Source: Pseudomonadota bacterium (GTDB lineage: Bacteria; Pseudomonadota; Gammaproteobacteria; Steroidobacterales; JBCBZW01). From it: 64,000 nucleotides of DNA. The notes beneath the pieces were generated by a model. The model was not told the DNA's origin, did no database searches, and worked only from the letters and a program-made list of their open reading frames with translations. Where the stretch lies: the NCBI GenBank assembly GCA_039193195.1, contig JBCCWS010000016.1:1-64000 (forward strand), given 5' to 3'. Position 1 is the stretch's first letter. Each line of letters starts with the position of its first letter. A program made the translations under genes and the position numbers. This document shows, in pieces, positions 3,504-64,000 of the stretch.

Positions 3504-5063
3504 TTAGCGTAGCGCCGGCAAGCAAGCAGCCAGCGCCTCGATACGGAGCAACGCACCCTCGCGCACGAGTTCGCCCACCGCGCCGATATCACCCGCAAGG
3601 TACCTATCCTCTTCCAGCCGAGCGGAACGGCTGCGCACGCAAGCCACCACCTCGCGCAGGGAATCGCTGGTGAGCACGGGGGCACGGAACTCTACCCCTT
3701 GGGCCCCTAGCATTAGTTCCACAGCGATGATATTCGCTAGGTTTTCGTTCATGCGCTGCAGGCGGCGTGCCGCATGGCAGGCCATGGACACATGATCTTC
3801 CTGATTTGCGCTGGTCGGTGTCGAGTCGACGCCGCAGGGGTTCGCCAAATGGCGGTTCTCCGCCATCAGCGCGGCGCAAGTCACCTCGGCGATCATGAAC
3901 CCTGAGTTCAGGCCCGGCGCGGGCGTGAGGAATGCGGGCAGTCCAAAGCTCTGCGCGGGATCTACGGTGATTGCGATCCGGCGCTCCGTGATCGCCCCGA
4001 TCTCGGCGATCGCGAGCGCGACCTGATCGGCCGCCAGTGCCACCGGCTCCGCGTGGAAGTTACCGCCAGAAATGATGCGATCTTCCTCGACCACTACGAT
4101 CGGGTTGTCGGTGACCGCGTTCGCCTCGACTTCCAGGGTCTGCGCCACCTGGCGCAGCTGATCCATCGCCGCCCCCATTACCTGCGGCTGGCACCGAATG
4201 CTGTAGGGGTCCTGCACGCGGTCGTCTTCTTCGCGGTGCGACTCGCGAATGGCCGACCCGGCGAGCAGAGCACGCAGGCACTGCGCCGCATCGGCCTGTC
4301 CCCGCAGGCCGCGCAGGGCTTGGATCGTCGGGTGAAACGGGGACGTGGAGGCCATCAGCGCGTCCGTGACCAGGGCTCCGGAGATCAACGCCGTCTGCGC
4401 CAGATGCCATGCATCGAACAGTCCTGCCAGCGCCAGAGCCGTGGATACTTGGGTGCCGTTAATCAGCCCAAGGCCCTCCTTAGGCCCGAGGACCAGGGGC
4501 GAGAGGCCCACGGACGCCAGGGCCGCGGCGCCCGCCATGCGCTCGCCGTCCACCCACGCCTCTCCCTCGCCGATCATCACCGCCGCCAGGTGCGCCAACG
4601 GCGCCAGATCGCCAGACGCCCCCACTGAGCCCTGAGCGGGGATCACCGGCAGAAGATCTCGACGCAGGAAGGCCTCCAGCATCTCGAGCATTGCCCAGCG
4701 CACACCCGAGGCGCCGCGGCCGAGAGAGATGAGCTTGAGCGCGACGATCAGGCGCACCACGGGCGCTGACATCGCCTCGCCGACGCCGCAGCAGTGGGAC
4801 AGCACCAGGTTTCGCTGCAGCTCGGCGGTCTGCTCCGCGGGAATACGCACGCTGGCCAGCTTGCCGAAGCCGGTGTTGACGCCGTACACGGGCGTGCTGG
4901 CCGTAGCGGCGCGCTGCACGATCTCGTGCGCGGCCTCGACGGCGGGGCGGGCACGCTGATCGAGGCCTCGCACGACCGCAGGCTCGCGGTAGATACGCTC
5001 CATCTGGGGCAGGGTCGTCTCGCCCGGCTTCAGCACGATCGCGTTGAGTGCGGTGGAAGACAT
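3504..5063 (-). CDS. hutH: histidine ammonia-lyase
   Basis: Histidine ammonia-lyase, 519 residues, the usual length. It removes ammonia from L-histidine to give urocanate, the first step of histidine degradation. The segment [14 protein letters not shown] (about 145-158) contains the Ala-Ser-Gly triplet (149-151) that cyclises to the MIO electrophile. The N-terminal VYGVNTGFG and the [11 protein letters not shown] and NFHAEP motifs are typical of the family. It follows hutF by 14 bases on the same strand, so the two are almost certainly one operon. The promoter would lie in the hutF-hutI divergent region, which carries a HutC-type operator. Confidence 0.97.
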
Positions 5064-5077
5064 CGGCGCGTTCTACC

Positions 5078-6466
5078 TTACGTCGTTGCAAGCTCGGCCA
5101 TCACCGAGCGAAAGCGATCGGCAATTGGCTCCTCATCAGCATGGCGACCAGCGCTTACGACCTGGCGACCACCTACCCAAACGTCCATCACGAGCGAGTC
5201 ATTGCCCGAAAACAACCAGCGATCCAGCCAGAGATCGCCGCGAGCGCCGGCCAGTCGCGGATGATCCCCGTCCAGGGCGACGAAATCGCCACGCATCCCA
5301 GGCGCGATCGCGCCGGCCAGGCGACCGCACGCCGCGCTGCCATCGCGTGCCGCCTGGCCGTACAGCGCCGCGCCCGTACTGCTGCCCTCCTGCGCCATCA
5401 CATTGCGCGCCTGCAGGCGCAGGCGTTGCCCGTACTCGAGCCAACGCAGCTCCTCCACGGGATCGACGCAGATGTTGCTGTCCGAGCCGATGCCCCAGCG
5501 GCCGCCGGCCCCCTGGTAGGTGGGCGCGTCGAACATCCCGTCACCGAGGTTGGCCTCAGTCGTGGGGCACAGGCCCACGCGCGCGCCGGCGGCCGCCAGC
5601 GCTTCGCTCTCGGACTTGATCATGTGGGTGGCGTGGATCAGGCACCACTGCCGATCGACGGGATACCGCTCTAGCAACCACTGCACGGGCCGTTCGCCGC
5701 ACCAATCCACACACGCGCGAACCTCGGCCTGCTGCTCGGCAATGTGCACGTGCACGGGCCCATCACCGAGCGCTTGGCGCGCCTCCAGCATACGGGTCAG
5801 CAGTGCGGGAGACACCGCCCGTAGGGAATGTGGCGCTAGCCCAAAGTGGGCGTCGGCATCGTGGATCAGCGCCCGGCGAGTCTGTTCGACCAGCACCAGG
5901 TAGTCGTCCAAGCTGTTGACAAAGCGCGCTTGCGCGCCGCTTGTCGGGGCTTCGGCGAACCCGCCGTAGCAATAGAGCACCGGTAGGGCGCAGAAGGCGA
6001 TGCCGGCGGCGCGGGCCGCGCGATAGCAGCGCAGCGTCATCTCCGCGCGTTGGGCGTAGGGCTGACCGTCGCCAGCGTGGTGCACGTATTGAAACTCCGC
6101 CACGCACGTGTAGCCGGCCTTCAGCATCTCCACGTAGAGCTGGGCAGCGATCGCTTCCAGCTGCGGCGGGGTCAGGCGCCCGAGGTAGCGGTACATCGCC
6201 TCACGCCAGGTCCAGAAGCTGTCCTCTGCGGCGCGGTCCCCTTGCGCGCGCTCGGCCATGCCGGCCATGGCGCGCTGATGGGCGTGGGAGTGGAGGTTGG
6301 CGATGCCGGGCAACAGCACGTCCACCGACCAGGTGGCCTGGGCCTCGCCCGGGGCTTGCCCGGTGGTCACCTCGGTGATCGCGCCGGCATCGTCGAGCCT
6401 CACCGACACGGCGCAAGCCCAACCGTCGGGTAGGAGTGCTTCGCCCGCCCAGATCGTCTTCGCCAC
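5078..6466 (-). CDS. hutF: formimidoylglutamate deiminase
   Basis: An amidohydrolase-superfamily enzyme that converts N-formimidoyl-L-glutamate to N-formyl-L-glutamate and ammonia. It shows the metal-binding NLHSHAHQRAMAG segment, the SFWTWREAMYR stretch typical of HutF, later histidines in FGLAPHSLRAVSP and HVHIAEQ, and the GIGSDSNICVDPVEELR segment. The GTG at 6466 is preferred (462 residues, close to family length) because AAGGG lies just upstream. Longer frames to 6574 would run through the operator and into hutI. It is the first gene of the leftward hutF-hutH unit. HutF implies the five-step hut pathway finishing with HutG, which is not in this window. Confidence 0.93.
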   Translation of the reverse strand: MAKTIWAGEALLPDGWACAVSVRLDDAGAITEVTTGQAPGEAQATWSVDVLLPGIANLHSHAHQRAMAGMAERAQGDRAAEDSFWTWREAMYRYLGRLTPPQLEAIAAQLYVEMLKAGYTCVAEFQYVHHAGDGQPYAQRAEMTLRCYRAARAAGIAFCALPVLYCYGGFAEAPTSGAQARFVNSLDDYLVLVEQTRRALIHDADAHFGLAPHSLRAVSPALLTRMLEARQALGDGPVHVHIAEQQAEVRACVDWCGERPVQWLLERYPVDRQWCLIHATHMIKSESEALAAAGARVGLCPTTEANLGDGMFDAPTYQGAGGRWGIGSDSNICVDPVEELRWLEYGQRLRLQARNVMAQEGSSTGAALYGQAARDGSAACGRLAGAIAPGMRGDFVALDGDHPRLAGARGDLWLDRWLFSGNDSLVMDVWVGGRQVVSAGRHADEEPIADRFRSVMAELATT

Positions 6467-6517
6467 GATGCCCTTCAACGTACGTTGCCCAGATTGCGAG
6501 ATGAGCGTACAGTAAGT

Positions 6518-6533
6518 TGTATATACATGTACA
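6518..6533. promoter_or_regulatory. HutC-type operator
   Basis: The perfect palindrome TGTATATACA (6518-6527) is followed at once by the palindrome TGTACA (6528-6533). It sits between the divergent hutF and hutI starts. HutC, a GntR/HutC-family repressor released by urocanate, is known to bind sites of the form TGTATATACA, and hutC is encoded 1.2 kb away. The site ends 12 bases before the hutI ATG, so occupancy should block both directions. Binding itself is inferred. Confidence 0.72.
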
Positions 6534-6545
6534 GCCCACGTGCGG

Positions 6546-7766
6546 ATGCCCACTCTGTTACTCACAAACGCCACCTTGGCGTGCTTAGATACAGCCGATG
6601 GCTACGGCCTCGCCGCGCGTGGGGCACTGCTGATCGAGGATGAGCGGATTGCCTGGGTAGGCGCCTCAGACGGCGCCCCATCTGCGGATGAGATCCTCGA
6701 CTGCGAGGGGCGCCTGCTCAGCCCCGGACTGATCGACTGCCACACACATCTGGTGTACGCCGGCGATCGCACGCGCGAGTTCGAAATGCGCCTCGAGGGC
6801 GCGAGTTACGAGGCGATCGCCCGCGCTGGCGGCGGCATCGCCTCCACCGTGGCCGCTACCCGTGCAGCGAGCACCGATGAGCTCATCGCCCAGTCCCTAC
6901 CGCGCCTAAGGGCACTGATAGGCGAAGGCGTGACCACCGTCGAGATCAAGTCGGGCTACGGCCTCGATCGGGAAACCGAGCTACGCATACTGGAGGTGGC
7001 GGGACGCCTCGGCGAGCGCGCCGGCGTGCGCGTGCAGCGCACCCTACTCGCCGCCCACGCTGTGCCCCAGGAGTACCGCGGTCACCCGGACGCCTACATC
7101 GACTGGGTCGCGGGCGACCTGTTGCCCGAGGTCTTGGCTGCAGGACTTGCCGACGCCGTCGATATCTTCATCGAAGGCATCGGGTTCAACACAGAGCAAG
7201 CCGAACGCCTCTTCAACGCCGCCGCCCACCTCGGCGTAGCGGTCAAGGCGCACGCCGAGCAGCTGAGTGACCAGGGCGGTGCGCGGCTTGCCGCAAGGTA
7301 TCAGGCGCTGTCTGTCGATCACCTCGAGTACCTAACGGAAGAGGACGTCGCTACACTCGGCCCTGGGGGCCCCGTCGCCGTACTTCTGCCCGGCGCCTTC
7401 CTCACCCTTGGCGAAACCCGTCGCCCCCCGATCGACGCCCTGCGTCGCCACGGCGTGCCCATGGCCGTGGCGACCGATGCCAACCCAGGCTCGTCACCGA
7501 TCTTCTCCCTGCTCGACGCCATGCACCTCGCCTGCGCTCTGTTCCGCATCACCCCCGCAGAGGCCCTGCGCGGGGTGACGGTCAACGCCGCCAAAGCGCT
7601 TGGGCTAGAGCAGGAGGTCGGCGTGCTGTGCGCTGGTCACCGCGCCGACCTCGTCCTGTGGCAGGTGACTGATCCCGCTGCCCTCAGCTACGGGCTTGGG
7701 ATGAATCCCGTCGACGGCATCGTGCAGAGCGGGCGGTGGCGTCAGCGGCCGCGGAAGGCCGCGTAA
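6546..7766 (+). CDS. hutI: imidazolonepropionase
   Basis: A metal-dependent amidohydrolase that opens 4-imidazolone-5-propanoate to N-formimidoyl-L-glutamate. The DCHTHLVYAGDR motif supplies the first metal histidines. VEIKSGYGLD, the KAHAEQLS segment, the SVDHLEY segment and ATDANPGSSP are all characteristic of HutI. The ATG at 6546 gives 406 residues, the usual length; a GTG two codons upstream (6540) is an alternative. No good ribosome-binding site is visible because the operator lies immediately upstream. It heads the rightward hutI-hutC-hutU unit, with three bases separating its stop from hutC. Confidence 0.96.
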   Translation: MPTLLLTNATLACLDTADGYGLAARGALLIEDERIAWVGASDGAPSADEILDCEGRLLSPGLIDCHTHLVYAGDRTREFEMRLEGASYEAIARAGGGIASTVAATRAASTDELIAQSLPRLRALIGEGVTTVEIKSGYGLDRETELRILEVAGRLGERAGVRVQRTLLAAHAVPQEYRGHPDAYIDWVAGDLLPEVLAAGLADAVDIFIEGIGFNTEQAERLFNAAAHLGVAVKAHAEQLSDQGGARLAARYQALSVDHLEYLTEEDVATLGPGGPVAVLLPGAFLTLGETRRPPIDALRRHGVPMAVATDANPGSSPIFSLLDAMHLACALFRITPAEALRGVTVNAAKALGLEQEVGVLCAGHRADLVLWQVTDPAALSYGLGMNPVDGIVQSGRWRQRPRKAA

Positions 7767-7769
7767 GCC

Positions 7770-8552
7770 ATGCATCCCGCGCAAGATCTCCTCCGCGCCG
7801 TCGACAAGAACGCGCCCGCCCCGATCTACCGACAGATCAAAGTGGCGATCGAGGACAAGATCCGCAACGGCGCGTGGCGCGCCGGTGGCAAGCTGCCGTC
7901 GGAGAACGAACTCGTGCTGCACTTGGGCGTTAGCCGCATGACCGTCAATCGGGCCCTGCGCGAACTTGCCCTGGAGGGGTTGGTCACCCGCGTACACGGC
8001 GTCGGGTCCTTCGTCGCGGACGTGCCCCGCCACGCCAGCCTGATCGAACTGCGCGACATTGCCCATGAAAGCGCGGACCGAGGCCACGCTCACAGCACGC
8101 GCGTCGTGGCATTGGGTGAGCGGATCGCCTCGGCAGAAGTCGCCCAGCAACTCGAACTCAGCGCCGACGCCTCGCCTGAGTTGCACTATCTGGAGGCCGT
8201 GCACTTTCAAGATGGGTTGCCCATTCAGCACGAGGCGCGCTACGTAAACCCAGCCCTCGCCCCGGGGATGCTGGAGCAGGACTTCACGCGGATCACCAGC
8301 ACCGCCTGGCTGCTGGCCGGTGGCCAGCCCGATGAGATGGAGCACGTGGTAAGCGCCACCCAAGGCACGCCTGCCCTGCGTGAGGCTCTCGGTCTCGCCC
8401 CCGAACACGCGCTGCTTCAGCTTTCCCGTCGTACCTGGCGCGCGGGGCAGGTGGTGACTTGGGTCACCCTCACCTACCCCGGCGATCGCTACCAGCTCGC
8501 CGCTCGCTACGCGACCAATACCTTCCGCAAGATCGAGGAGTCTCCCCAATGA
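7770..8552 (+). CDS. hutC: histidine-utilisation repressor, GntR/HutC family
   Basis: This 260-residue regulator has an N-terminal winged helix (about residues 15-80: [46 protein letters not shown], then the wing [10 protein letters not shown]). A C-terminal UTRA ligand-binding domain follows, with [21 protein letters not shown] near the end. In known systems HutC represses hut genes until urocanate binds. The gene lies between hutI and hutU and its TGA overlaps the hutU ATG as ATGA, so the repressor is co-expressed with its targets. The likely operator is at 6518-6533. Confidence 0.95.
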
Positions 8553-10246
8553 GCACCGGTGCCCATCCCTCAAGCAGTGCCCAACACCCGGCCCGCGTGG
8601 TGCGCGCTCCCCGCGGCAGCGAACTGACCTGCCGAAGCTGGCTCACGGAAGCGCCCTATCGCATGCTGCAGAACAATCTGGACCCACAAGTGGCGGAGAA
8701 CCCGGACGAGCTCATCGTCTACGGCGGTATCGGGCGGGCGGCGCGCAACTGGGAGAGCTTCGATCACATCCTCGAGTGCCTGCGCAATCTCGCGGATGAC
8801 GAGAGCCTATTGATTCAATCAGGTAAACCGGTCGGGGTCTTCCGTACGCATGCGGACGCCCCACGGGTGCTCATCGCCAACTCCAACCTGGTGCCCCAAT
8901 GGGCGAACTGGGAGCACTTCCAGGAGCTCGATCGCAAGGGCCTCGCCATGTACGGGCAGATGACCGCTGGCTCCTGGATCTACATCGGCAGCCAGGGCAT
9001 CGTGCAGGGCACCTATGAGACCTTCGTCGAGGCCGGTCGCCAGCACTTCGGCGGCGACACGCGAGGGCGTTGGATCCTCACCTGCGGCTTGGGCGGTATG
9101 GGCGGCGCGCAGCCCCTCGCCGCCACCATGGCCGGCTATAGCATGCTGTGCATCGAGTGCGATGAATCCCGTATCGACTTCCGCCTGCGCACGGGCTACC
9201 TGGACCGCCGCGCCGGCTCCGTCGACGAGGCCCTCCAGCTGATCGACCAAGCTCGCGCCAGGGGTGAGCCCGTCTCCGTGGGCCTCGCCGGCAACGGCGC
9301 CGAGCTCTTGCCGGAGCTGGTCGATCGCGGCGTGAAGCCGGACCTGGTGACCGATCAGACCTCGGCCCACGACCCCGTGAACGGCTACTTGCCCGCGGGG
9401 TGGAGCATGGCCCAGTGGCAACAGATGCGTCGCGAGCAGCCGGAGACCGTCGCTCGCGAGGCGCGTCGCTCGATGGCCGTGCACGTGCGCGCCCTCCTCG
9501 CCTTCCACGACCAAGGCATCCATACCGTTGACTATGGCAACAACATTCGCCAACAGGCCTTCGACGAGGGCGTGCACAGCGCCTTCGACTTCCCGGGCTT
9601 CGTCCCCGCCTACATCCGCCCCCTGTTCTGTCGGGGTGTCGGGCCGTTCCGCTGGGTGGCCCTATCCGGTGATCCCGAGGACATCTACCGCACGGATGAG
9701 AAGGTGAAGGAGCTGATCCCCGACGATCCGCACCTCCATCGCTGGCTGGACATGGCCCGCAAGCGCATCCAGTTCCAGGGCCTACCGGCGCGCATCTGCT
9801 GGGTAGGCCTCGGCGATCGCGATCGCCTCGGCCTCGCCTTCAACGAGATGGTACGCAAGGGCGAGCTCAAGGCGCCGGTGGTGATCGGCCGCGACCACCT
9901 GGACTCGGGGTCCGTGGCAAGCCCGAACCGTGAGACCGAGGCCATGCTCGACGGCTCCGACGCCGTGTCCGACTGGCCCCTACTCAACCTGATGCTCAGC
10001 ACCGCCAGCGGCGCCACCTGGGTGTCCCTGCACCACGGCGGCGGCGTCGGCATGGGCTACTCGCAACACGCGGGCCTGGTCATCTGCTGCGATGGTACGG
10101 AGGCCGCGGACGAGCGCCTGCGCCGCGTACTGTGGAACGATCCTGCCTCGGGTGTGATGCGTCACGCCGATGCGGGCTACGACATTGCCAAACGTTGCGC
10201 ACGCGAGCACGACTTGAAATTGGGCGCGATCGACCTGACGTCCTGA
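8549..10246 (+). CDS. hutU: urocanate hydratase
   Basis: Urocanate hydratase (urocanase) converts urocanate to 4-imidazolone-5-propanoate using tightly bound NAD. The 565-residue product from the ATG at 8549 matches family length. Recognisable segments are [37 protein letters not shown], the glycine-rich [22 protein letters not shown] and [18 protein letters not shown]. The start overlaps the hutC stop (ATGA), showing translational coupling. A longer frame starting at 8459 inside hutC lacks family similarity. Confidence 0.97.
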
Positions 10247-48326: not shown

Positions 48327-49154
48327 ATGGCAGCCCCCCGCGCACGCCCAGAACCCACCATCGACTTCGGCGCCCTCCTGCGCGACTGGCGTCGACACCG
48401 ACAGCTAAGCCAACTGGGCCTGTCGAGCGCTTCGGGCATCTCCCAACGGCATATCAGCTTCCTGGAGAACGGCCGAGCGCGACCGAGTCAGGGCATGGTG
48501 GTGGCCCTAGCCGATGCGCTCGACGTGCCCCTGCGCGAGCGCAATGCGCTGCTCCTGAGCGCCGGCTTCTCGGCGAACTACGCAACTCAAGCGCTGCAAG
48601 GCGCTCAGCTCGCCGTGTTTCGCCAGGCGATCGATGCTCTTTTAAGTCAACAGGAGCCCTACCCCGCCATCGTCCTCGATGGACGCTGGAATCTGGTTCA
48701 GCTGAACGCGGGAGCCGAGCGGTTCTTCGCCCAATTCGTCGATCTGTCCGGCCTCCAAGTGCCAGCTGCCAGCGAATTCCAACTCGTGCACTTGTGCCTG
48801 CGCGATGACGGCCTGCGGCCGGCGTTGAGCAACTGGGAGGAGGTCGTGCACGCGTTTTTGCAACGTGCGCGGCGTGCCCTACTCGTCAACCCTAGGGATC
48901 GGGCGCTGGGCGCACTGGTAGAGGAAATCCTCCATCATCCCGCCGCACCCGAGCGCTGGCACACACCCGACTGGGAGGGGGAATCGGCACCGGCGATTAC
49001 GCTGCGCCTCGAGCACGACGGCGGTCGTTTCGAACTGCTCACGATGCACGCACACTTCGCGGGCTCCCAGCAGGTATCGCTCGAAGAACTCACCGTGGAG
49101 CTATTTTTCCCCGCTGATGCCACGACCGCCGCCTGGTTCGCAGGAGCCGAGTAA
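48327..49154 (+). CDS. XRE-family regulator with MmyB-like ligand-binding domain
   Basis: A 275-residue transcription factor. The N-terminal Cro/XRE helix-turn-helix spans about residues 14-70 (LLRDWRRHRQLSQLGLSSASGISQRHISFLENGRARPS). The remainder is an MmyB-like PAS-type domain (YPAIVLDGRWNLVQLNAGAERFFAQF, later FELLTMHAHFAGSQQVSLEELTVELFFPAD). Such regulators commonly bind fatty-acid-like ligands. AGGAGAC lies eight bases before the ATG. Divergence from the DUF2834 gene and closeness to the redox operon suggest possible targets. Confidence 0.92.
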   Translation: MAAPRARPEPTIDFGALLRDWRRHRQLSQLGLSSASGISQRHISFLENGRARPSQGMVVALADALDVPLRERNALLLSAGFSANYATQALQGAQLAVFRQAIDALLSQQEPYPAIVLDGRWNLVQLNAGAERFFAQFVDLSGLQVPAASEFQLVHLCLRDDGLRPALSNWEEVVHAFLQRARRALLVNPRDRALGALVEEILHHPAAPERWHTPDWEGESAPAITLRLEHDGGRFELLTMHAHFAGSQQVSLEELTVELFFPADATTAAWFAGAE

Positions 49155-49619: not shown

Positions 49620-51592
49620 GTGGCCCTTTCCTGGACTCGTGTCGCCGCCCCCAATGAACTGCCCAATGGGCGCGCGAAGACCGTCACCGTGGGAACGCGC
49701 TCGATGGCACTGGTCCACTTCGACAATCAGTACGCTGCAATGGACAATCGCTGCCCGCACCAGGGCGGCCCCCTCGGCGAGGGATCGATCGAACGCGGGG
49801 TGGGCGGCGAGTGCTGGCTTCGATGCCCCTGGCACGGTTGGGACTTCCACCCCCTCACGGGACAGCCGCCCGGCGGCCACGAGGACAGCGGGCAAGAGAT
49901 GTTCAGCGTGGAGATCCGCGAGGACGGCGTCTACGTTGGCGTCGACATCGAGCCCCCCCACACTCGCACGGTCACAGACGTGATGGCCGAAACGATGGTC
50001 AACTGGGGCGTCAAGCGCGTTTTCGGCATGGTCGGCCACTCCAACCTAGGACTCGCCGATGCCCTACGGCGCCGCGAGGTGGCCGAGGAGCTCTCCTACG
50101 TCGGCATCCGCCAGAAGGCGCCGCATCCTTCGCCTGCTCGGGTTATGCGAAGCTCTGCGGCAAGCCGGCCGCCTGCCTGACCATCGCTGGCCCCGGGGCA
50201 ACCAATCTGATGACTGGCCTGTGGGACGCCAAAGTGGACCGGGCGCCGGTGTTGGCTCTGACGGGGCAGGTCCAGGTGCAAGTATTTGGGCCCGGCGCCT
50301 TCCAGGAAATCGATCTAGCGACCGCCTTCGCCCCCGTGGCGCGCTTCAGTCAGGCCGTCCTACACAGCTCCAATCACGCCGAACTCATGTCCCTCGCCTG
50401 CAAGAACGCCATCGTGGAGCGGGACGTCGCCCACCTCATCTTCCCAGATGACGTGCAAACCCAAGCCGCTGGCGAGGGCACGCCGGCGGGATCTCCGCAA
50501 GGGCGATTGGGTGATCTTGCGATCGCACCTGCCCCCGGAGCTCTCGATCAGGCAGTGCAGCTGATCAGCCGCGCCGAGCGGCCAATGATCGTGGTCGGCT
50601 ACGGGGCACGCGATTGCATGGCGCCCATTGTGCGCCTTGCCGAGCGGCTGCAGGCACCGGTGGTCACCACCTTCAAGGGCAAGGGTCAGATCCCTGATTC
50701 GCACCCGAACGCCGCCGGCGTCCTCGGCCGCTCGGGCACCCCCATCGCGAGCTGGTTCATGAACGAATGTGACCTGATCGTTGCCTTAGGCTCGTCCTTC
50801 TCCAATCACACGGGCATCGAAGCTAAGAAGCCGATCATTCAAGTCGACTTCGAAGCGATGCAACTAGGTAAGTTCCACCCGGTGGAGGTGCCCGTGCTCG
50901 GCGAGATTGCACGCACGACGGAGCTAATCCTGGAGGCCCTACCAAACACACTGGCGGCCCAAGACCAGCGTCCCGAGCTGGCTCAGCGCTGGGCCGCGTG
51001 GCGGGAGGAAAAGAATGCGCGCGCCCTGGATGACAACTGCCACGGCGTCAACTCTGCGGCTATCTTCACCGCCCTCACCCGCCTCGCGCCGAAGGATGCG
51101 GTGATCGCCGTAGACGTAGGCAACAACACCTACTCTTTCGGGCGCTACTTCGAGTGCGCCGGCCAGTCTGTGCTCATGTCCGGCTACCTGGGCTCCATCG
51201 GCTTTAGCCTACCGGCCGCAATCGGTGCCTGGTGTGCCACCCAGGATTTCGCTGAGCACCGCGGCCGCAAGGTGATCTCCGTCTCCGGCGACGGCGGCTT
51301 TGGCCAATACCTGGCCGAGTTCACCACGGCAGTCAGGTACGGCATGAACATCACCCACATCCTGCTCAATAACGGCGAACTCGGGAAGATCTCCAAGGAG
51401 CAGCGCGCTGGGGAGTGGGAAGTGTGGCAAACCACCCTACACAATCCCAGCTTCGCAGCCTACGCAGAGCTTTGCGGTGGGCTTGGCCTCGAGGTCCATG
51501 CCCTGGCGGATCTAGACGCCGCCATGAGCAAGGCGCTCACGCACGAGGGGCCAGCGCTGCTGGAAGTCCTGACCGACGCAGAGCTTGTGTAG
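49620..51592 (+). pseudogene. Rieske-thiamine-diphosphate enzyme fusion, frameshifted
   Basis: The intended product is about 657 residues. The N-terminal Rieske [2Fe-2S] domain (residues 1-110) has CPH at 45-47 and CPWH at 69-72. After it starts a thiamine-diphosphate enzyme of the acetolactate-synthase/pyruvate-oxidase fold: TVTDVMAETMVNWGVKRVFGMVGHSNLGLADALR, then IAGPGATNLMTGLWDAK, a middle domain (MIVVGYGARD) and the diphosphate-binding VSVSGDGGFGQYLAEFTT ... LLNNGE. At 50113 one base is missing: reading changes exactly where relatives have a His-Glu pair (GVRHEGAA), and the protein resumes in the other frame with GAASFACSGYAK. The lost Glu is the catalytic one. The frame is otherwise intact for 1.4 kb, so a very recent mutation or a sequencing error is likely. 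GTG start with CAGGAG upstream. Confidence 0.8.
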
Positions 51593-51601
51593 GCCACGCT
51601 G

Positions 51602-51832
51602 ATGGAGCTCCTCGTGCGCACCGCGCTTCTCGGCCTCGCCATCTACGCGCTCCTCGGCTGCCTGTTCGCGCTCTGGTTCGTCAGCTTGGGCCACCGCCGC
51701 TTGGATGCCGCAGCCATGAGTCTCTGGGGACGCGTCATGATCTTCCCCGCAAGCGCAGCGCTCTGGCCCTTGTTGCTGGTGCGAGCGATCACCGTACAAG
51801 TACCCTTAAACGCCAGCGATCCCAGCCCATGA
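51602..51832 (+). CDS. small membrane protein of the redox operon (A)
   Basis: A 76-residue protein with two hydrophobic helices (LLVRTALLGLAIYALLGCLFALWFVSLG and GRVMIFPASAALWPLLLVRAI). The IFPASAALWPLLLxR stretch looks conserved in form, but no family was recognised. It begins nine bases after the Rieske-thiamine-diphosphate gene and its stop overlaps the next start (ATGA). Position suggests an accessory subunit of the haem-b/Rieske membrane protein two genes down. Confidence 0.7.
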   Translation: MELLVRTALLGLAIYALLGCLFALWFVSLGHRRLDAAAMSLWGRVMIFPASAALWPLLLVRAITVQVPLNASDPSP

Positions 51833-51993
51833 TGCAAGCTCACCGCCACTGGCACCTCTTCCTGTGGATGCTCCTTGGCCCCACTATGCTCGTGATCGTG
51901 TGGTTGGCAGTCACCCTGCGACCGCCCGCCGCGATCAATGACTCCCTTCCACAGGCCCTCACGCCCCCCGCTGCGCAGGCCATCGATGAGTGA
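51829..51993 (+). CDS. small membrane protein of the redox operon (B)
   Basis: A 54-residue protein with one membrane helix (LFLWMLLGPTMLVIVWLAV) preceded by a histidine-rich end (MMQAHRHWH) and followed by a proline-rich tail. The ATG at 51829 overlaps the stop of the previous gene, and its own end overlaps the next gene by eight bases. No family recognised; tight coupling supports a real gene. The N-terminal histidines could bind metal or haem, which is inference. Confidence 0.62.
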   Translation: MMQAHRHWHLFLWMLLGPTMLVIVWLAVTLRPPAAINDSLPQALTPPAAQAIDE

Positions 51994-53062
51994 GGGTTAC
52001 GGCGCCGTTGGATGGAACGCCTTTAAGCGTCGCTACGACCTGTGGATAGTCGGCGGCACCCTCACCTATCTCATCACCTTCGTGGTGGTCACGGTCCTCA
52101 CGCGGCCCAACGACCAGCCGATGGCAGAGCTGCAGCTGTTGATCCGCGCCTTCGGCAGCCTGTCGTTTCTCATGCTGACCCTGATCCTATGTATCGGCCC
52201 CCTCGCCCGATTCAGCACACGCTTCAAGCCTATGCTCTACAACCGCCGGCACTTGGGCGTGAGCACCTTTTTCATCGCCCTCATCCACGGCGTGTTGGTA
52301 CTGATCTGGTACCACGGGTTCGGTGTGATCGATCCGATCACATCCCTATTCATCTCGAACCCTCGCTACGACTCGATCGCGGGCTTCCCCTTCGAAAGCC
52401 TCGGCGCCCTGGCGCTTTCCATCTTGTTCCTGATGGCAGCCACCTCCCATGACTTCTGGAACGCCAACCTTGGCCCCGCCCTGTGGAAGGCTCTGCATAT
52501 GGGCGTCTACCTCGCCTATGCGGCGCTGGTCGGACATGTCGCGCTAGGCGTGATCCAGTTTGAGAAGAATCCCCTCTACGCGGTCGCCCTCGGCGCTTCC
52601 GTGGCCTTGGTCACAGCACTTCACCTGGCTAGCGCCTTCGCCAGCACTCAGAGCAGACGCACACCCGCCGCGGACGGTTGGCTCGATGCGGGACCCGCCC
52701 TGGGAATTCCAGATACGCGAGCGGTAATCCTGACACCGTCGAAGGGCGAACGTATCGCTGTGTTCCGTGACGGCCAGCGGATAATGGCCGTGTCCAATGT
52801 GTGCCGCCACCAGGGTGGCCCCCTCGGCGAGGGCCGGATTGTCGAAGGCTGTGTGACCTGCCCTTGGCACGGCTTTCAGTACGACCCGGCGAACGGGCGT
52901 TCACCGCCACCGTTCAACGAACGCATCGCAACCTACCAAACACGCTTGGTCGACGAACGCGTCTGGGTAAATCCCAAGGGCTGCCCCCCCGGCACGCGGG
53001 TACCCCCGTCTGTCCTGCCGGCATCAGCGGCAGATAGCCCCACTGCGGAGCCCGCGCCTTGA
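51986..53062 (+). CDS. ferric-reductase-like haem-b membrane domain fused to Rieske protein
   Basis: A 358-residue protein. Residues 15-220 hold about six membrane helices of the ferric-reductase/cytochrome-b type, with histidine pairs H89/H101 and H171/H184 placed to bind haem b. Residues 245-320 form a Rieske [2Fe-2S] domain with CRH (273-275) and CPWH (292-295), in the same GGPLGEG context as the Rieske domain of the first gene. A proline-rich tail follows. It should move electrons between a soluble donor and the other membrane face. The ATG at 51986 overlaps the preceding gene, and the stop overlaps the next start. The partners cannot be named. Confidence 0.85.
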   Translation: MSEGYGAVGWNAFKRRYDLWIVGGTLTYLITFVVVTVLTRPNDQPMAELQLLIRAFGSLSFLMLTLILCIGPLARFSTRFKPMLYNRRHLGVSTFFIALIHGVLVLIWYHGFGVIDPITSLFISNPRYDSIAGFPFESLGALALSILFLMAATSHDFWNANLGPALWKALHMGVYLAYAALVGHVALGVIQFEKNPLYAVALGASVALVTALHLASAFASTQSRRTPAADGWLDAGPALGIPDTRAVILTPSKGERIAVFRDGQRIMAVSNVCRHQGGPLGEGRIVEGCVTCPWHGFQYDPANGRSPPPFNERIATYQTRLVDERVWVNPKGCPPGTRVPPSVLPASAADSPTAEPAP

Positions 53063-53814
53063 GTGAGAAGGACTACTTCATCGGCTATTGCGCCGATACG
53101 CCTGCGCGGGACCGGCGCTTCATGCTGCGCCTCGGCCTGAGCCTCACGTTGAGTTGCGGCGCCCTAGGCGCAGGCTTGGCCGCTTTGCAGCGATCGCCGG
53201 GAAACGGGACCTGGGATCTCGAAGATCGTGACTGGCGCGGGGTCGTTCACGCAGATCCGTTCCCGATGCTTCGCACGCGGGACATCGACGGCATTGCGCG
53301 CAGCCTCTGGTTGGTGTGCCCGGGCAAGTGTGGCGTACGCACGATCATCGACGCCTACGCCGGGCAGGCCGTCACCCTACGCGGCAGCCTCCTCGCCCGC
53401 GACGGCTTCCACATGTTATCGGCCGCCCAGGGCTCTGACTGGATCGCACACTCCCCAACCGCCCCCGAGACTGCCCTGCGTCTGCCCGCTGCAGAGCCAC
53501 TTGAGCACGTGTCCCTGGTGGGGGAGATCCTGGACATGAAGTGTTTTGCGGGTGCCATGCGGCCCTCCACTGGCAAGCCACACAAGGCCTGCGCCGCGCT
53601 GTGCATTCGCGGCGGCATTCCGCCTGCGCTGTTCGCACGCGATCGCCAAGGCGCGTACCGCCCCCTGCTGTTGGTCGACGAGCACGGCGCGGCCCACCTC
53701 CCGGAGCCTCTACTGCCACTGGTGGCCGACTCAGTCAGAGTCGAGGGTCAGCTCTTACGCCGTGACGACACGCTGTTTCTCGCTTCACCTACCAATAACA
53801 TTCGTCGAACGTAG
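53059..53814 (+). CDS. membrane-anchored Cys/His-motif protein of the redox operon
   Basis: A 251-residue protein starting at TTG 53059, overlapping the previous stop (TTGA). An N-terminal membrane helix (MLRLGLSLTLSCGALGAGLAAL) is followed by two beta-rich, OB-like halves. The first has LVCPGKCGVRTIIDAYAGQAVTLRGSLLARD. The second starts SLVGEILDMKCFAGAMRPSTGKPHKACAALCIRGGIPP, with a C-x14-H-x2-C-x3-C spacing that looks like a metal, haem or cofactor site. A third similar strand set ends DSVRVEGQLLRRDDTLFL. No family name is known to me. It is the last gene of the operon and is likely on the periplasmic side. Confidence 0.72.
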   Translation: MSEKDYFIGYCADTPARDRRFMLRLGLSLTLSCGALGAGLAALQRSPGNGTWDLEDRDWRGVVHADPFPMLRTRDIDGIARSLWLVCPGKCGVRTIIDAYAGQAVTLRGSLLARDGFHMLSAAQGSDWIAHSPTAPETALRLPAAEPLEHVSLVGEILDMKCFAGAMRPSTGKPHKACAALCIRGGIPPALFARDRQGAYRPLLLVDEHGAAHLPEPLLPLVADSVRVEGQLLRRDDTLFLASPTNNIRRT

Positions 53815-54319
53815 ACACGTTCTCAGCGGGCTGATTGCCGCCCCTGGATTCGAGTGGCGCACCTGGCCAGGCGAGCATGGCCAGCGACGCGACGCCACCC
53901 CACCTCAGTCGGGCGCCTTGCGCATTCCCACCCCGCGCTCGTCGAAGCGTTGACCCGACCGCACTGGCGGGCCTCGAAAGCCGCAGAGCGCCCCCTACTC
54001 GACTTGAGTTGCGCGAATCCCGCGAAGGACTTGCAAAGCCCTGCAAGGGCACGCATTACCAAATTAACAACATTTTATACTTTTCAGCAACATAGATTCA
54101 TAGCCGCAACGAATTAGGCATAAAAGTCACAATTCGCTTGCATAACCACAAAGTAGCTCCATAGACTCCGAGCTCACTGGACTTTGTTGCGAAAAAACAG
54201 CGATTCTGCCATTCAATACATCGGTGCTGATAAATTATCGTTGCTTTTTTGCAACCATTTGTTCCAGCGTCTAACCACGTCATATCCCATCGCCTCGGTG
54301 GGAGCTGGAGGAGTCTGAG
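53815..54319. other. AT-rich regulatory gap before the TonB-dependent receptor
   Basis: No gene in 505 bases. From about 54050 the DNA is markedly AT-richer than the rest of the window. It contains the inverted repeat CTTGCA/TGCAAG near 54030 and a hairpin GTTGC-TTTTTT-GCAAC near 54240-54256. TGGAGGAG precedes the receptor ATG. This fits a regulated promoter, but no Fur-box-like 19-mer was recognised. Confidence 0.5.
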
Positions 54320-57286
54320 ATGCAACGACTGAACCTAACGAGAGCGGTGCGCTACAGCCTGTTTTCCGCGCGTCGCGCGGCCGTGCTGGCCGGCGCGGTA
54401 CTGGCGTCAGCCAGCGTGCTGGTCCCTGCGGCCGCTCAGGAGGCGCCCACAGAAGTAGAAGAGGTGGTGGTCACCGGATCGCGCCTCACCGATCCGAACC
54501 TGACCCAATCGAGCCCCGTCGCCACGGTCACCTCTGAGCAGGTGGAACTGCGCCAGGCCAATTTCGTCGAGGAGTTCATCCGCGAGATTCCGGGCGTGGT
54601 GCCCAGCATCGGTGCCCAGGTCAACAACGGCAACGGTGGCTCGACGTTCATCAACCTTCGCGGCCTAGGCTCGAACCGCAACATTACCCTGCTAAACGGC
54701 ACACGCGTGGTGCCGGCCGACCTGCAGGGCAGAACCAACCTCGACATCATCCCCATCGCCCTCGTCGAGCGAACGGATGTGCTCACCGGAGGCGCAGGCT
54801 CAACCTACGGTGCTGACGCCATCTCCGGCGTGGTGAATTTCATCACCCGCCAGAACTTCGAGGGCTTCGACCTTCGTGTGACCGGCGCTCGCACGGCGGA
54901 AGGCGACGGCGATACGCTGCGCATCGATCTGACCACAGGTGGCAACTTCGACGGCGGTCGCGGCAACGCCGTGTTCAGCGTTGGCTATACAGACCGTGAG
55001 GCGATCCTCCAGGGGGACCGAGACTTTGGCGTGGAGAATCTCTCCTCCGCCACCGGTGCGCCGGGCGGCTCGAGTACGACCGTCCCAACGGTGCTCACCT
55101 TTCCCGGGAGCGGAGGCACGGTGCAGGTGGCGCCGGATGGCGAGTCGGTGATTCCGTTCTACCAGCCTTTCAACTTCAATCCCTTCAACCTGTTCCAGCT
55201 GCCCCTAGAGCAATACCGTCTGTACGGCTCGGCCCGCTACGAACTCGACAGCGGCATCGAGATGTATACAGAAGCGTTCTACTCCCAGAGCACGAACCGA
55301 ACGCAGATCGCGCCCTCTGGCACCTTCCGCAACGTGTTCACGACGCCACTCTCCAACCCCTTCCTCCCGGCAGGGATTCGCAACCAGATCTGCGGCGCAG
55401 ACTCGGACGCCGCCACCGATGGGATCCAGCCGAACTTCTCTCAAGCGGAGTGTGACGCCGCCGCACTGGCAACAGACCCGGATGACCCGAACTATCGCAC
55501 GATCGATCTCGACTACGGGCGGCGCTTTGTAGAGCTCGGCACACGCGATAACGAGCGGCAGACCCGTGTCTGGCAGCTGAAGGCCGGGGCCCGCGGCGAT
55601 CTCGTCTCCAACCTCTCCTGGGACGCCTTCTTTGCCTACGGCGAGAGCGACCTGCGCGGCTCCCAGTCGGGCAACGGTACGCGCACTCGCCTGCAGCAAG
55701 CCTTACTCGCCACAGACCCCAACGCCTGCCTGGACCCATCCGGCGGTTGTGTGCCGATCGATCTGTTCGGCCCACTAGGCAGCATCACCAACCAAGTCGG
55801 CGCCTTCCTGGATGTGGGCAACACGGCAAACCAGTTCACCACCTTGCTCCAGGGTCAGGCGCTGGTGAGCGGTGATGTGAACACCTCCATGCCGTGGGCC
55901 GAGTCGCCGATCGGCTTCGCCGTTGGTGCGGAGTACCGCGACTACGAAGCGGGCTTTGCCAACGATCTGCTGACGCAGACCCCGGGTGAGGTGCTGGGCA
56001 ACGGTGCTGCCGCACCTAACGTGACCGGAAGCTACGATGTTCGCGAGGTCTTTACGGAGGTGAACGTGCCCCTGGTTCAGGGCGCTGCCTTCGCTGAGGA
56101 GGTCAGCCTGCAAGCGGGCGCCCGTCTCTCCAACTACAGCACCACCGGGGACGAGAGCACGTGGAAGGTCGGCGGTACCTGGAGCCCCGTGGGCGGCCTC
56201 CAGATCCGCGGTAACCTGCAGCGGGTGACGCGCGCGCCGAACATAAACGAGCTGTTCGCCCCCCAGGTCACGGGCCTCAACAACTTCGCCACGGACCCCT
56301 GCACGGGCAACGCGCCACTCGAGAACGAAGACCTACGCCAGATCTGCCTGGCCCAAGGCGCACCGCTAGGCACCATCGGCAGCATCATCGTCGACCCTGC
56401 CGGTCAGGTAAATGCGACCACCGGCGGCAACCCCAATCTCGACGCGGAGGATGCAGACACGTGGACCGTCGGCATGGTGTTGCAGCCGGACTTCGCACCC
56501 AATCTGGCGCTCACCTTGGACTACTACAACATCGAGGTGAGCGACGCGATCACCAACCCGAACCCGGGCGATGTGTTCGCCGCTTGCTTCGGGCCTGACT
56601 TCGAGGATGGGACCCTTGCGATCAGCGGCGCCTCAGCCTCGGATCCCGCCTGCACTGGCATCCGTCGCAACCCAGCCACGGGCAACCTGTTCGGTGATGT
56701 GTCGACAACCGCGGGATTGCCACTGGTGCTGAGTAACCAGGGTGCCCTCGCCACCAGCGGCATCGACGTGTCCGTGAACTGGCAGGGGGATCTCGGATTT
56801 GCCCGCGTCTCCAACAGCTTCAACGGTAACTGGACCCAAGAGTCCGTCTTCAATGCCAACGTCGACAATCCCGACTCTATCGACCGTGACTGCACGGGCT
56901 TCTACAGCATCAACTGCGCCTCGATCCAACCGGAGTTCAGCTTCTCCAACCGGGCGACACTGAGCTTCGACGGCATGGACCGTCCGGTGGACGTGTCTGT
57001 GTTCTGGCGCTGGATCGATGCCGTGGAAGCTGAGCCCGAAGTGGCGGACACCTTCTTGGAGGAGTTCCGAGAGATCGATGCGGAGAACTATATCGACCTC
57101 ACCGCACGCGTGCAGCTGACGCAGCGTCTGCAGCTGACCGGCGCTGTGCTGAACGTCTTCGACAACCTGCCGACTATCGTCGGCAACAACATCGGCACCA
57201 CCGCGTTCAACTCGGGCAACATCTACCCGAGCACCTACGACCCGCTGGGCCGGCGCTTCTCCATTACGGTGCGTCACACCTTCTAG
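54320..57286 (+). CDS. TonB-dependent outer-membrane receptor
   Basis: A 988-residue receptor with a signal peptide (AAVLAGAVLASASVLVPAAAQ). The TonB box region VEEVVVTGSRL starts the plug domain (to about residue 175: LNGTRVVPADLQGRTNLDIIPIALVERTDVLTGGAGSTYGADAISGVVNFIT). The remaining part is a 22-strand barrel, ending GRRFSITVRHTF with the terminal Phe. Loops include paired cysteines (CGADSD, CDAAA and CTGNAP, CLAQG). This layout is of the large receptor class seen in Alteromonadales and xanthomonads, often for oligosaccharides or siderophores; the substrate is unknown. Monocistronic, with its own terminator. Confidence 0.95.
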   Translation: MQRLNLTRAVRYSLFSARRAAVLAGAVLASASVLVPAAAQEAPTEVEEVVVTGSRLTDPNLTQSSPVATVTSEQVELRQANFVEEFIREIPGVVPSIGAQVNNGNGGSTFINLRGLGSNRNITLLNGTRVVPADLQGRTNLDIIPIALVERTDVLTGGAGSTYGADAISGVVNFITRQNFEGFDLRVTGARTAEGDGDTLRIDLTTGGNFDGGRGNAVFSVGYTDREAILQGDRDFGVENLSSATGAPGGSSTTVPTVLTFPGSGGTVQVAPDGESVIPFYQPFNFNPFNLFQLPLEQYRLYGSARYELDSGIEMYTEAFYSQSTNRTQIAPSGTFRNVFTTPLSNPFLPAGIRNQICGADSDAATDGIQPNFSQAECDAAALATDPDDPNYRTIDLDYGRRFVELGTRDNERQTRVWQLKAGARGDLVSNLSWDAFFAYGESDLRGSQSGNGTRTRLQQALLATDPNACLDPSGGCVPIDLFGPLGSITNQVGAFLDVGNTANQFTTLLQGQALVSGDVNTSMPWAESPIGFAVGAEYRDYEAGFANDLLTQTPGEVLGNGAAAPNVTGSYDVREVFTEVNVPLVQGAAFAEEVSLQAGARLSNYSTTGDESTWKVGGTWSPVGGLQIRGNLQRVTRAPNINELFAPQVTGLNNFATDPCTGNAPLENEDLRQICLAQGAPLGTIGSIIVDPAGQVNATTGGNPNLDAEDADTWTVGMVLQPDFAPNLALTLDYYNIEVSDAITNPNPGDVFAACFGPDFEDGTLAISGASASDPACTGIRRNPATGNLFGDVSTTAGLPLVLSNQGALATSGIDVSVNWQGDLGFARVSNSFNGNWTQESVFNANVDNPDSIDRDCTGFYSINCASIQPEFSFSNRATLSFDGMDRPVDVSVFWRWIDAVEAEPEVADTFLEEFREIDAENYIDLTARVQLTQRLQLTGAVLNVFDNLPTIVGNNIGTTAFNSGNIYPSTYDPLGRRFSITVRHTF

Positions 57287-62961: not shown

Positions 62962-64000
62962 ATGCGCGAGTATCTGACTGGCTTCGGCAACGAGCACGCG
63001 AGCGAGGCGCTCGCCGGCACCCTGCCGCGGGGCCGCAATTCTCCCCAACGCGTTGCCTACGGGCTGTACGCCGAGAAGTTGAGCGGCACCGCATTTACCG
63101 CACCAAGGGCACGCAATGCGCGCACCTGGCTCTACCGCATCCGACCTTCCGTTGCGCACCTCGGCTTCAGGCCTTACGAGGGCGCGACCTCCTGGGAAAC
63201 GGCACCTCTGCACGGCGCAGCGCCCCCTGCAAACCCTTTGCGCTGGGATCCTCAGCCGCTTGCTGATGGCCCTGTCGACTTCGTCGACGGCATGTACACC
63301 ATCGCAGCGTGCGGAGACGCCCTCGCGCAGACGGGGGCGAGCATGCACGTCTACCGCGCCAACCAATCGATGACATCACGCTATTTCGCCAACGCCGACG
63401 GCGAGCTGCTCATCGTTCCCGAGCTAGGCCGGCTCACCCTTCACACCGAGTGTGGCGTGCTCTCGGTGGGGCCGCAGGAAATCGCCGTCATCCCGCGCGG
63501 CATGCGCTTCCGCGTCGCCCTGGAAGACCCTGTCGCGCGTGGCTATGTCTGTGAGAATCACGGCTCACTGTTTGAACTCCCAGAGCGCGGTCCCATCGGC
63601 TCGGATGGACTCGCGAACGAACGCGACTTCGAGTACCCCACGGCAGCCTATGAAGATCGTGAGGGCAAGTTCGAGCTCATCTGCCGACTCGCGGGCACGA
63701 TGCAGATCGCCCACCTGGAGCACTCACCGCTAGACGTGGTCGCCTGGCACGGAACGCTGGCGCCCTACCGATACGACCTTCGGCGCTTCAACGTGATCGG
63801 CTCAATCAGCTACGACCACCCCGACCCCTCGATCTTCACCGTACTTACGTCCCCCTCGGACACAGCGGGCACGGCCAACGTCGACTTCGTTGCCTTCGCG
63901 CCGCGCTGGTTGGTAATGACCGACACGTTCCGACCACCTTGGTACCATCGCAACGTCATGTCCGAGTTCATGGGGTTGATCACCGGCGAGTACGACGCGA
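62962..64000 (+). CDS. hmgA: homogentisate 1,2-dioxygenase (partial, runs off the window)
   Basis: The first 346 residues of homogentisate dioxygenase, a non-haem iron enzyme that opens homogentisate to maleylacetoacetate in tyrosine degradation. The start [26 protein letters not shown] is diagnostic. Then follow [71 protein letters not shown] and [25 protein letters not shown]. The last part has the iron-ligand region [16 protein letters not shown] (His and Glu). The ATG at 62962 matches known N-termini. About 90 further residues lie past the window. Confidence 0.97.

Follow-up and report, generated by a model that had tools for sequence, protein, structure and literature searches.

Do the five closely spaced genes at positions 49620-53814, which pair two Rieske domains with a thiamine-diphosphate (ThDP) enzyme and a ferric-reductase-like membrane domain, encode a single redox system? 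The cluster lies on the + strand of a window of 64,000 nucleotides (positions 1-64,000 of contig JBCCWS010000016.1, assembly GCA_039193195.1), and all five genes predicted there were found at these coordinates. They encode a Rieske-ThDP fusion, two small membrane proteins (smA and smB), a ferric reductase domain (FRD) joined to a second Rieske domain (FRD-Rieske), and a membrane-anchored Cys/His protein (CH). The original prediction had regarded the five genes as one system; a conserved redox set was indeed found across distant taxa, but it consists of two separable modules and not of one five-gene unit. The core comprises the last four genes (smA, smB, FRD-Rieske, and CH). The soluble Rieske enzymes, namely Rieske-ThDP and a Rieske-glutamate-synthase fusion (Rieske-GltS, or GltRi) that is often a further member of the set, make up a separate linked pair whose range is wider than that of the core.

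Conservation and range of the two modules

A scan of GTDB species genomes for the CH family yielded 362 matching stretches, and the best 80 of the 362 were examined. These loci were mostly from Alphaproteobacteria (Parvularculaceae, Hyphomonadaceae, Rhodobacteraceae, and Rhizobiales), with some from Beta- and Gammaproteobacteria. FRD-Rieske stood beside CH in 77 of the 80 loci, the remaining three being at contig ends, and smA homologues were clustered in 65 of 82 loci with CH. The co-occurrence check proposed with the original prediction was thereby carried out and reached far beyond one strain; chance juxtaposition or a strain-specific set is ruled out by the recurrence across loci. The accompanying doubt, that the fusion might be accidental and without relatives, was dispelled by relatives in Alpha-, Beta-, and Gammaproteobacteria, Halobacteria, and Actinomycetota.

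Of the 80 core loci, 29 carried Rieske-ThDP and 36 carried Rieske-GltS. Among the well-flanked loci (at least 6.5 kb on each side of the core; n = 51), 19 contained both fusions, three Rieske-ThDP only, five Rieske-GltS only, and 24 neither. A closely similar set of 50 loci (18 both, 3 ThDP only, 5 GltS only, 24 neither) gave a Fisher p of 1.5e-6, which is optimistic, like any locus-level p-value here, given that the sampled loci are related (many are from Parvularculaceae). A Na+/H+ exchanger (PF00999) was found in 14 of 21 Rieske-ThDP loci vs. 1 of 29 others. An even sampling of the phylum (378 genomes) had full-length CH in seven genomes and Rieske-ThDP in five, all five of which also contained CH (p = 3e-10); there were nine full-length cases of Rieske-GltS that included the Rieske part, four of them with both other genes. 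The class sample of 203 genomes contained CH in one and Rieske-ThDP in three; two of these three lacked CH, and both had Rieske-ThDP near a Na+/H+-exchanger-like gene.

The co-location of Rieske-ThDP and the core was repeated in differing gene orders and strands. One genome harbored, on a single strand, NhaP, GltRi, the core, Rieske-ThDP, a two-component system, and a TRAP transporter, and another harbored a two-component system, TRAP, GltRi, the core, and Rieske-ThDP, also on a single strand. This contiguous TRAP and two-component context suggests organic-acid use in these two genomes, not in general. Neighboring genes did not point to a common substrate, as no single pathway recurred among them and TRAP transporters were found in some loci only. 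Some genomes carried two core copies in differing contexts (L029/L033, L036/L047, and L048/L071), of which at least L033 and L048 adjoin soluble Rieske fusions. By reading, a small YHS-domain-like protein recurred near the core in six loci, including L024, L061, and L081. Rhizobium-type loci (L006, L007, L077, L078, and L083) carried the core with a short-chain dehydrogenase/reductase (SDR) gene, near genes for a Rieske-less ThDP enzyme, OpgC-like and TPR proteins, and mostly also a CoA-transferase.

Beyond the phylum, the Rieske-ThDP fusion was found on plasmids of four haloarchaea and in one Mycobacteroides strain on a plasmid (54-62% identity), and Rieske-GltS was also present on three of the four haloarchaeal plasmids. 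The CH and FRD profiles had no match in the haloarchaeal and Mycobacteroides regions, where the FRD-Rieske profile matched Rieske domains only. The soluble pair is separate from the core because both fusions occur on haloarchaeal plasmids without CH or FRD matches. In Mycobacteroides and in one haloarchaeon, a gene annotated as a cation:proton antiporter adjoins Rieske-ThDP or lies within a few genes of it. The haloarchaeal plasmid islands (L123-L126) contained merA/dihydrolipoyl-dehydrogenase-like genes and, variously, DsrE, peroxiredoxin, pirin, and TauE genes.

Domains and conserved residues of the encoded proteins

Both PF01794 (51 bits, cut-off 28) and PF00355 matched the FRD-Rieske product, which confirms the predicted fusion of a ferric-reductase-like domain to a second Rieske domain. 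Five histidines (H89, H101, H155, H171, and H184) and the Rieske ligands C273, H275, C292, and H295 were invariant among 55 sequences. In an alignment with Escherichia coli MsrQ, the RR-x-LG motif and the positions of H101, H171, and H184 agreed. The structural model (pLDDT 89.5) contained six long membrane helices followed by the Rieske domain, which as modelled was most like dioxygenase ferredoxins. No FAD/NAD Pfam match indicative of a NOX-type FAD/NADPH domain was found on FRD-Rieske, and the Rieske domain occupies that position; nor did any of the five products match, in Pfam, the ring-hydroxylating catalytic domain of Rieske non-haem iron oxygenases. By our own reading of the positive-inside rule, the Rieske domain of FRD-Rieske is predicted to be cytosolic and CH periplasmic. 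These topology signs fit a cytosolic Rieske domain adjoining a predicted membrane haem b, in line with the original prediction.

The CH protein contained, in the second of its two predicted OB folds, a Cys3-His-Met set (C162, M167, H175, C178, and C182) that was invariant among 62 sequences. Its confident model (pLDDT 91.9) had one transmembrane helix and two OB-like barrels. A Foldseek/VIA search of this model retrieved only generic OB folds in the PDB (Z up to 7.2) and turned up no clear structural homologue, an absence that is not proof. Relatives of CH by sequence were not found in the PDB, Pfam, or NCBIfam, and smA and smB likewise had no significant match in Pfam or NCBIfam.

The Rieske-ThDP gene matched PF00355, PF02776, PF00205, and PF02775, as expected for the predicted joining of a Rieske domain to a ThDP enzyme. 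Its Rieske ligands are C45, H47, C69, and H72; the C-x-H...C-x2-H set is present in both Rieske domains of the window and invariant in both family alignments. The best models for the ThDP part were oxidases or quinone-linked dehydrogenases, with the highest score against pyruvate oxidase models (381.7 bits, below the curated cut-off of 742). Intact homologues, tested on the protein of a sister genome, contained the three TPP-enzyme domains and the catalytic RHE Glu. The ThDP part aligned with PoxB and ended where the C-terminal segment of PoxB starts; its middle domain was like the flavin adenine dinucleotide (FAD)-binding domain of PoxB/POX, and the enzyme probably binds FAD. Rieske-GltS contained an N-terminal Rieske domain and PF01645, in which the Cys motif for a [3Fe-4S] cluster was conserved.

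A tree of the Rieske domains resolved three groups, namely Glt (support 100/100), ThDP (81/95), and FRD (81/76), on long branches. The string HQGGPLGEG, whose presence in both Rieske domains of the operon had been taken to suggest descent from, or docking with, a shared partner, was family-wide in each of the ThDP-fusion and FRD groups. As a mark of recent common origin or duplication within the operon it is unsupported, since the two domains fall in separate tree groups (moderate support, long branches).

The operon in the window and in a sister species

The coordinates of the operon and of its upstream regulator are given in Table 1. A gap of 9 nucleotides separates the Rieske-ThDP gene from smA, and start and stop codons overlap at the three following junctions (51829-51832, 51986-51993, and 53059-53062), an arrangement as in a translationally coupled operon; the predicted tight coupling is real. 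The two tiny membrane proteins and the anchored Cys/His protein of the original prediction correspond to two small membrane open reading frames (ORFs) and to CH.

Table 1. Features of the Rieske-ThDP/core locus (window positions)
Feature	Position	Strand	Content
Upstream regulator	48327..49154	+	Helix-turn-helix (HTH) and MmyB-like ligand-binding domain; same strand as operon
Rieske-ThDP gene, first part	49620..50180	+	Rieske [2Fe-2S] domain and start of TPP-enzyme N-domain
Reading-frame break in Rieske-ThDP gene	about 50,112-50,117	+	Just 5' of codon for ThDP-activating Glu
Rieske-ThDP gene, remainder	50114..51592	+	Rest of TPP_enzyme_N, TPP_enzyme_M, TPP_enzyme_C; pyruvate-oxidase-like; frame of ORF 49811-51592
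smA, small membrane protein, 76 amino acids (aa)	51602..51832	+	
smB, small membrane protein, 54 aa	51829..51993	+	Family pattern H-R-x2-H...W
FRD-Rieske, 358 aa	51986..53062	+	Six-helix MsrQ-like ferric-reductase domain and C-terminal Rieske domain
CH protein, 251 aa, TTG start	53059..53814	+	One N-terminal transmembrane helix and two predicted OB folds

The Rieske-ThDP fusion was a single open frame of 657 codons (L008:2489-4462) in a sister genome of the same genus (G001), and most of the 29 loci that carry it have it intact at full length, but it is frame-broken in the window, where the original prediction had described it. ORF 49620-50180 encodes the Rieske domain and matched the TPP N-domain model up to about position 46; beyond that it departs from the homologous frame and runs into a stop at 50180. 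ORF 49811-51592 matched the same model from position 48 onward. Between the window and the sister species, the ratio of nonsynonymous to synonymous substitution rates (dN/dS) was 0.055 before the break and 0.058 after it. The values of the regulator, the core genes, and smA were higher (0.07-0.18), and that of the TonB gene was lower (0.02). Judging by these ratios, both halves are under strong purifying selection. Because the gene is intact elsewhere and dN/dS is low on either side, the break is either very recent or a sequence or assembly error. A programmed frameshift was rejected, as the sister gene needs none. No second Rieske-ThDP copy was found in the window genome.

The sister genome carries both soluble fusions around the core. 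Its Rieske-glutamate-synthase gene (L008:6723-8339) lies directly after CH and before the TonB receptor gene, and is absent from the corresponding interval of the window (53814-54320). No remnant of GltRi was recognizable in the interval from 53814 to the TonB gene, where the sole strong match was to the non-coding stretch 5' of the TonB gene; the homologues found in the rest of the window genome all lacked a Rieske match. The TonB-dependent-receptor-like gene (54320-57286) had 98% protein identity to the sister species, vs. 75-92% for the operon beside it. The HTH/MmyB-like regulator is also located upstream in the sister species, and its link to the operon is putative. Elsewhere in the window, probable histidine-utilization genes (HutH-, HutF-, HutI-, and HutU-like, by reading) occupy 3504-10246, and the start of a homogentisate-dioxygenase-like gene (by reading) lies at 62962-64000, cut by the window end.

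Electron path, alternatives, and known systems

The gene set, its conservation and co-occurrence, the topology signs, and the conserved ligands are direct observations. Our preferred reading of them, which we regard as plausible but still short of probable, is a two-module redox system in which soluble Rieske flavoenzymes would oxidize organic acids and pass electrons to a membrane conduit. In this reading we infer the cofactor loading, the path and direction of the electrons, the compounds oxidized, and any direct connection of one module to the other. The membrane conduit would consist of a cytosolic Rieske domain on an MsrQ-like six-helix b-haem domain, together with smA, smB, and periplasmic CH. 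The second module would be cytosolic and consist of either one flavoenzyme or two, all bearing a Rieske domain at the N-terminus: a pyruvate-oxidase-like enzyme that uses ThDP and probably FAD, to which many relatives add the glutamate-synthase-like flavin mononucleotide (FMN)/[3Fe-4S] enzyme. These enzymes would oxidize organic (2-oxo or amino) acids, and their flavins would give electrons singly to their own Rieske clusters, from which the electrons would move to the membrane Rieske domain, haem b, and then CH or the quinone pool. The Rieske domain would thus replace the membrane-binding C-terminus of PoxB as the link of the enzyme to the respiratory membrane, an electron-delivery logic that would be comparable to those of MsrPQ and PoxB. 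A bolder and rather unlikely extension is a "Rieske bus," in which several Rieske-bearing cytosolic flavoenzymes would feed one membrane Rieske-haem b conduit with a new periplasmic OB-fold Cys/His family, forming a separate respiratory entry or exit, while Na+/H+ antiport would compensate for the movement of charge and protons.

Several observations weigh against the two-module reading. About half of the core loci have neither soluble fusion nearby, and no core accompanies Rieske-ThDP at its locus in the haloarchaea, on the mycobacterial plasmid, or in two gammaproteobacteria. The place of the soluble fusions ahead of the core is taken in Rhizobium by an SDR gene, and the window genome itself combines the frame break in the ThDP gene with the lack of GltRi. 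The relatedness of the sampled loci also tempers the association between the fusions and the core. Finally, the modules are separable, and therefore a direct electron path from the ThDP enzyme to the core is not required.

The core might instead serve an MsrPQ-like periplasmic repair or oxidant defense, with cytosolic or quinol electrons passing via haem b to the Cys/His/Met site of CH for reductive repair or metal/thiol chemistry, and with the soluble enzymes as optional suppliers or merely co-inherited. This role, which we regard as somewhat doubtful, is consistent with the MsrQ-like FRD, the constant partnership of CH with its invariant C-M-H-C-C set, the absence of soluble enzymes from 24 of 51 well-flanked loci, and the genes that share the haloarchaeal plasmid islands with Rieske-ThDP (merA/dihydrolipoyl-dehydrogenase-like and, variously, DsrE, peroxiredoxin, and pirin). 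However, those islands lack the core, no MsrP-like molybdoenzyme accompanies it, and such a role would leave unexplained why the soluble enzymes are so strongly associated with the core in Pseudomonadota. Reverse flow, in which quinol or periplasmic electrons would drive glutamate-synthase-type amination or non-oxidative ThDP chemistry in the cytosol via haem b and Rieske, seems improbable. Glutamate synthases run their [3Fe-4S]/FMN chain reductively, Rieske ferredoxins are usually electron donors to enzymes, and the Cys motif of GltRi is conserved. On the other hand, the ThDP part best matches oxidases or quinone-linked dehydrogenases, the TRAP/two-component context in two loci is catabolic, and glutamate synthesis driven by quinol would presumably be uphill. 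It is similarly hard to credit that Rieske-ThDP and the core are independent units brought together by shared regulation or horizontal transfer, with no common electron path. Each is found without the other, and occurrence in the class is patchy (CH in 1 of 203 sampled genomes), but this account meets with repeated co-location in differing orders and strands, joint occurrence across whole genomes, and Rieske domains in both modules.

The conserved gene set is apparently undescribed. No published description of it was found in the literature on Rieske domains with ThDP enzymes, glutamate synthase, or ferric reductase, a search whose coverage left out most subscription journals and preprints. 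A survey of the FRD superfamily (NOX/FRE/YedZ-STEAP) already shows, in its architecture figure, a bacterial FRD+Rieske combination, given as one domain extension among several, and reports that YedZ-type proteins have an arginine in place of the first canonical haem histidine (PMC3591440). In contrast to the system in the window, no operon, ThDP partner, or OB-fold partner was found in that survey. Many marine and soil bacteria harbor, unannotated, this conserved membrane redox module, which includes a protein family that neither Pfam nor NCBIfam contains, and two fused iron-sulfur enzymes that haloarchaea share. If the two-module reading is true, it would add a new means of linking the oxidation of 2-oxoacids or amino acids to a membrane b-haem, and MsrPQ-type delivery of electrons across the membrane would gain a new relative.

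Among known systems, MsrPQ (YedYZ) resembles the core in its MsrQ-like b-haem FRD, with aligned RR-x-LG and haem histidines, and in a gene order that places the FRD beside a periplasm-facing partner. The core FRD differs in its C-terminal Rieske domain and the two extra tiny membrane proteins, and it scores 36.6 bits against the MsrQ NCBIfam equivalog, short of the cut-off of 130. Its partner is a Cys/His protein with predicted tandem OB folds, whereas MsrP is a molybdoenzyme; no molybdopterin oxidoreductase family in Pfam or NCBIfam matched any of the five products. The ThDP fusion shares with PoxB/pyruvate oxidase the three TPP domains, the catalytic RHE Glu in intact homologues, and a FAD-domain-like middle domain, but it has an N-terminal Rieske domain, lacks the C-terminal membrane-binding segment of PoxB, and scores 382 against the cut-off of 742. 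GltRi shares PF01645 and the [3Fe-4S] Cys motif with the FMN domain of glutamate synthases (GltB, archaeal-type, and N-methylglutamate-synthase-like), but has an N-terminal Rieske domain and no amidotransferase domain. Known families cover every domain of the set except CH and the two tiny proteins, and the core resembles known transmembrane FRD electron conduits.

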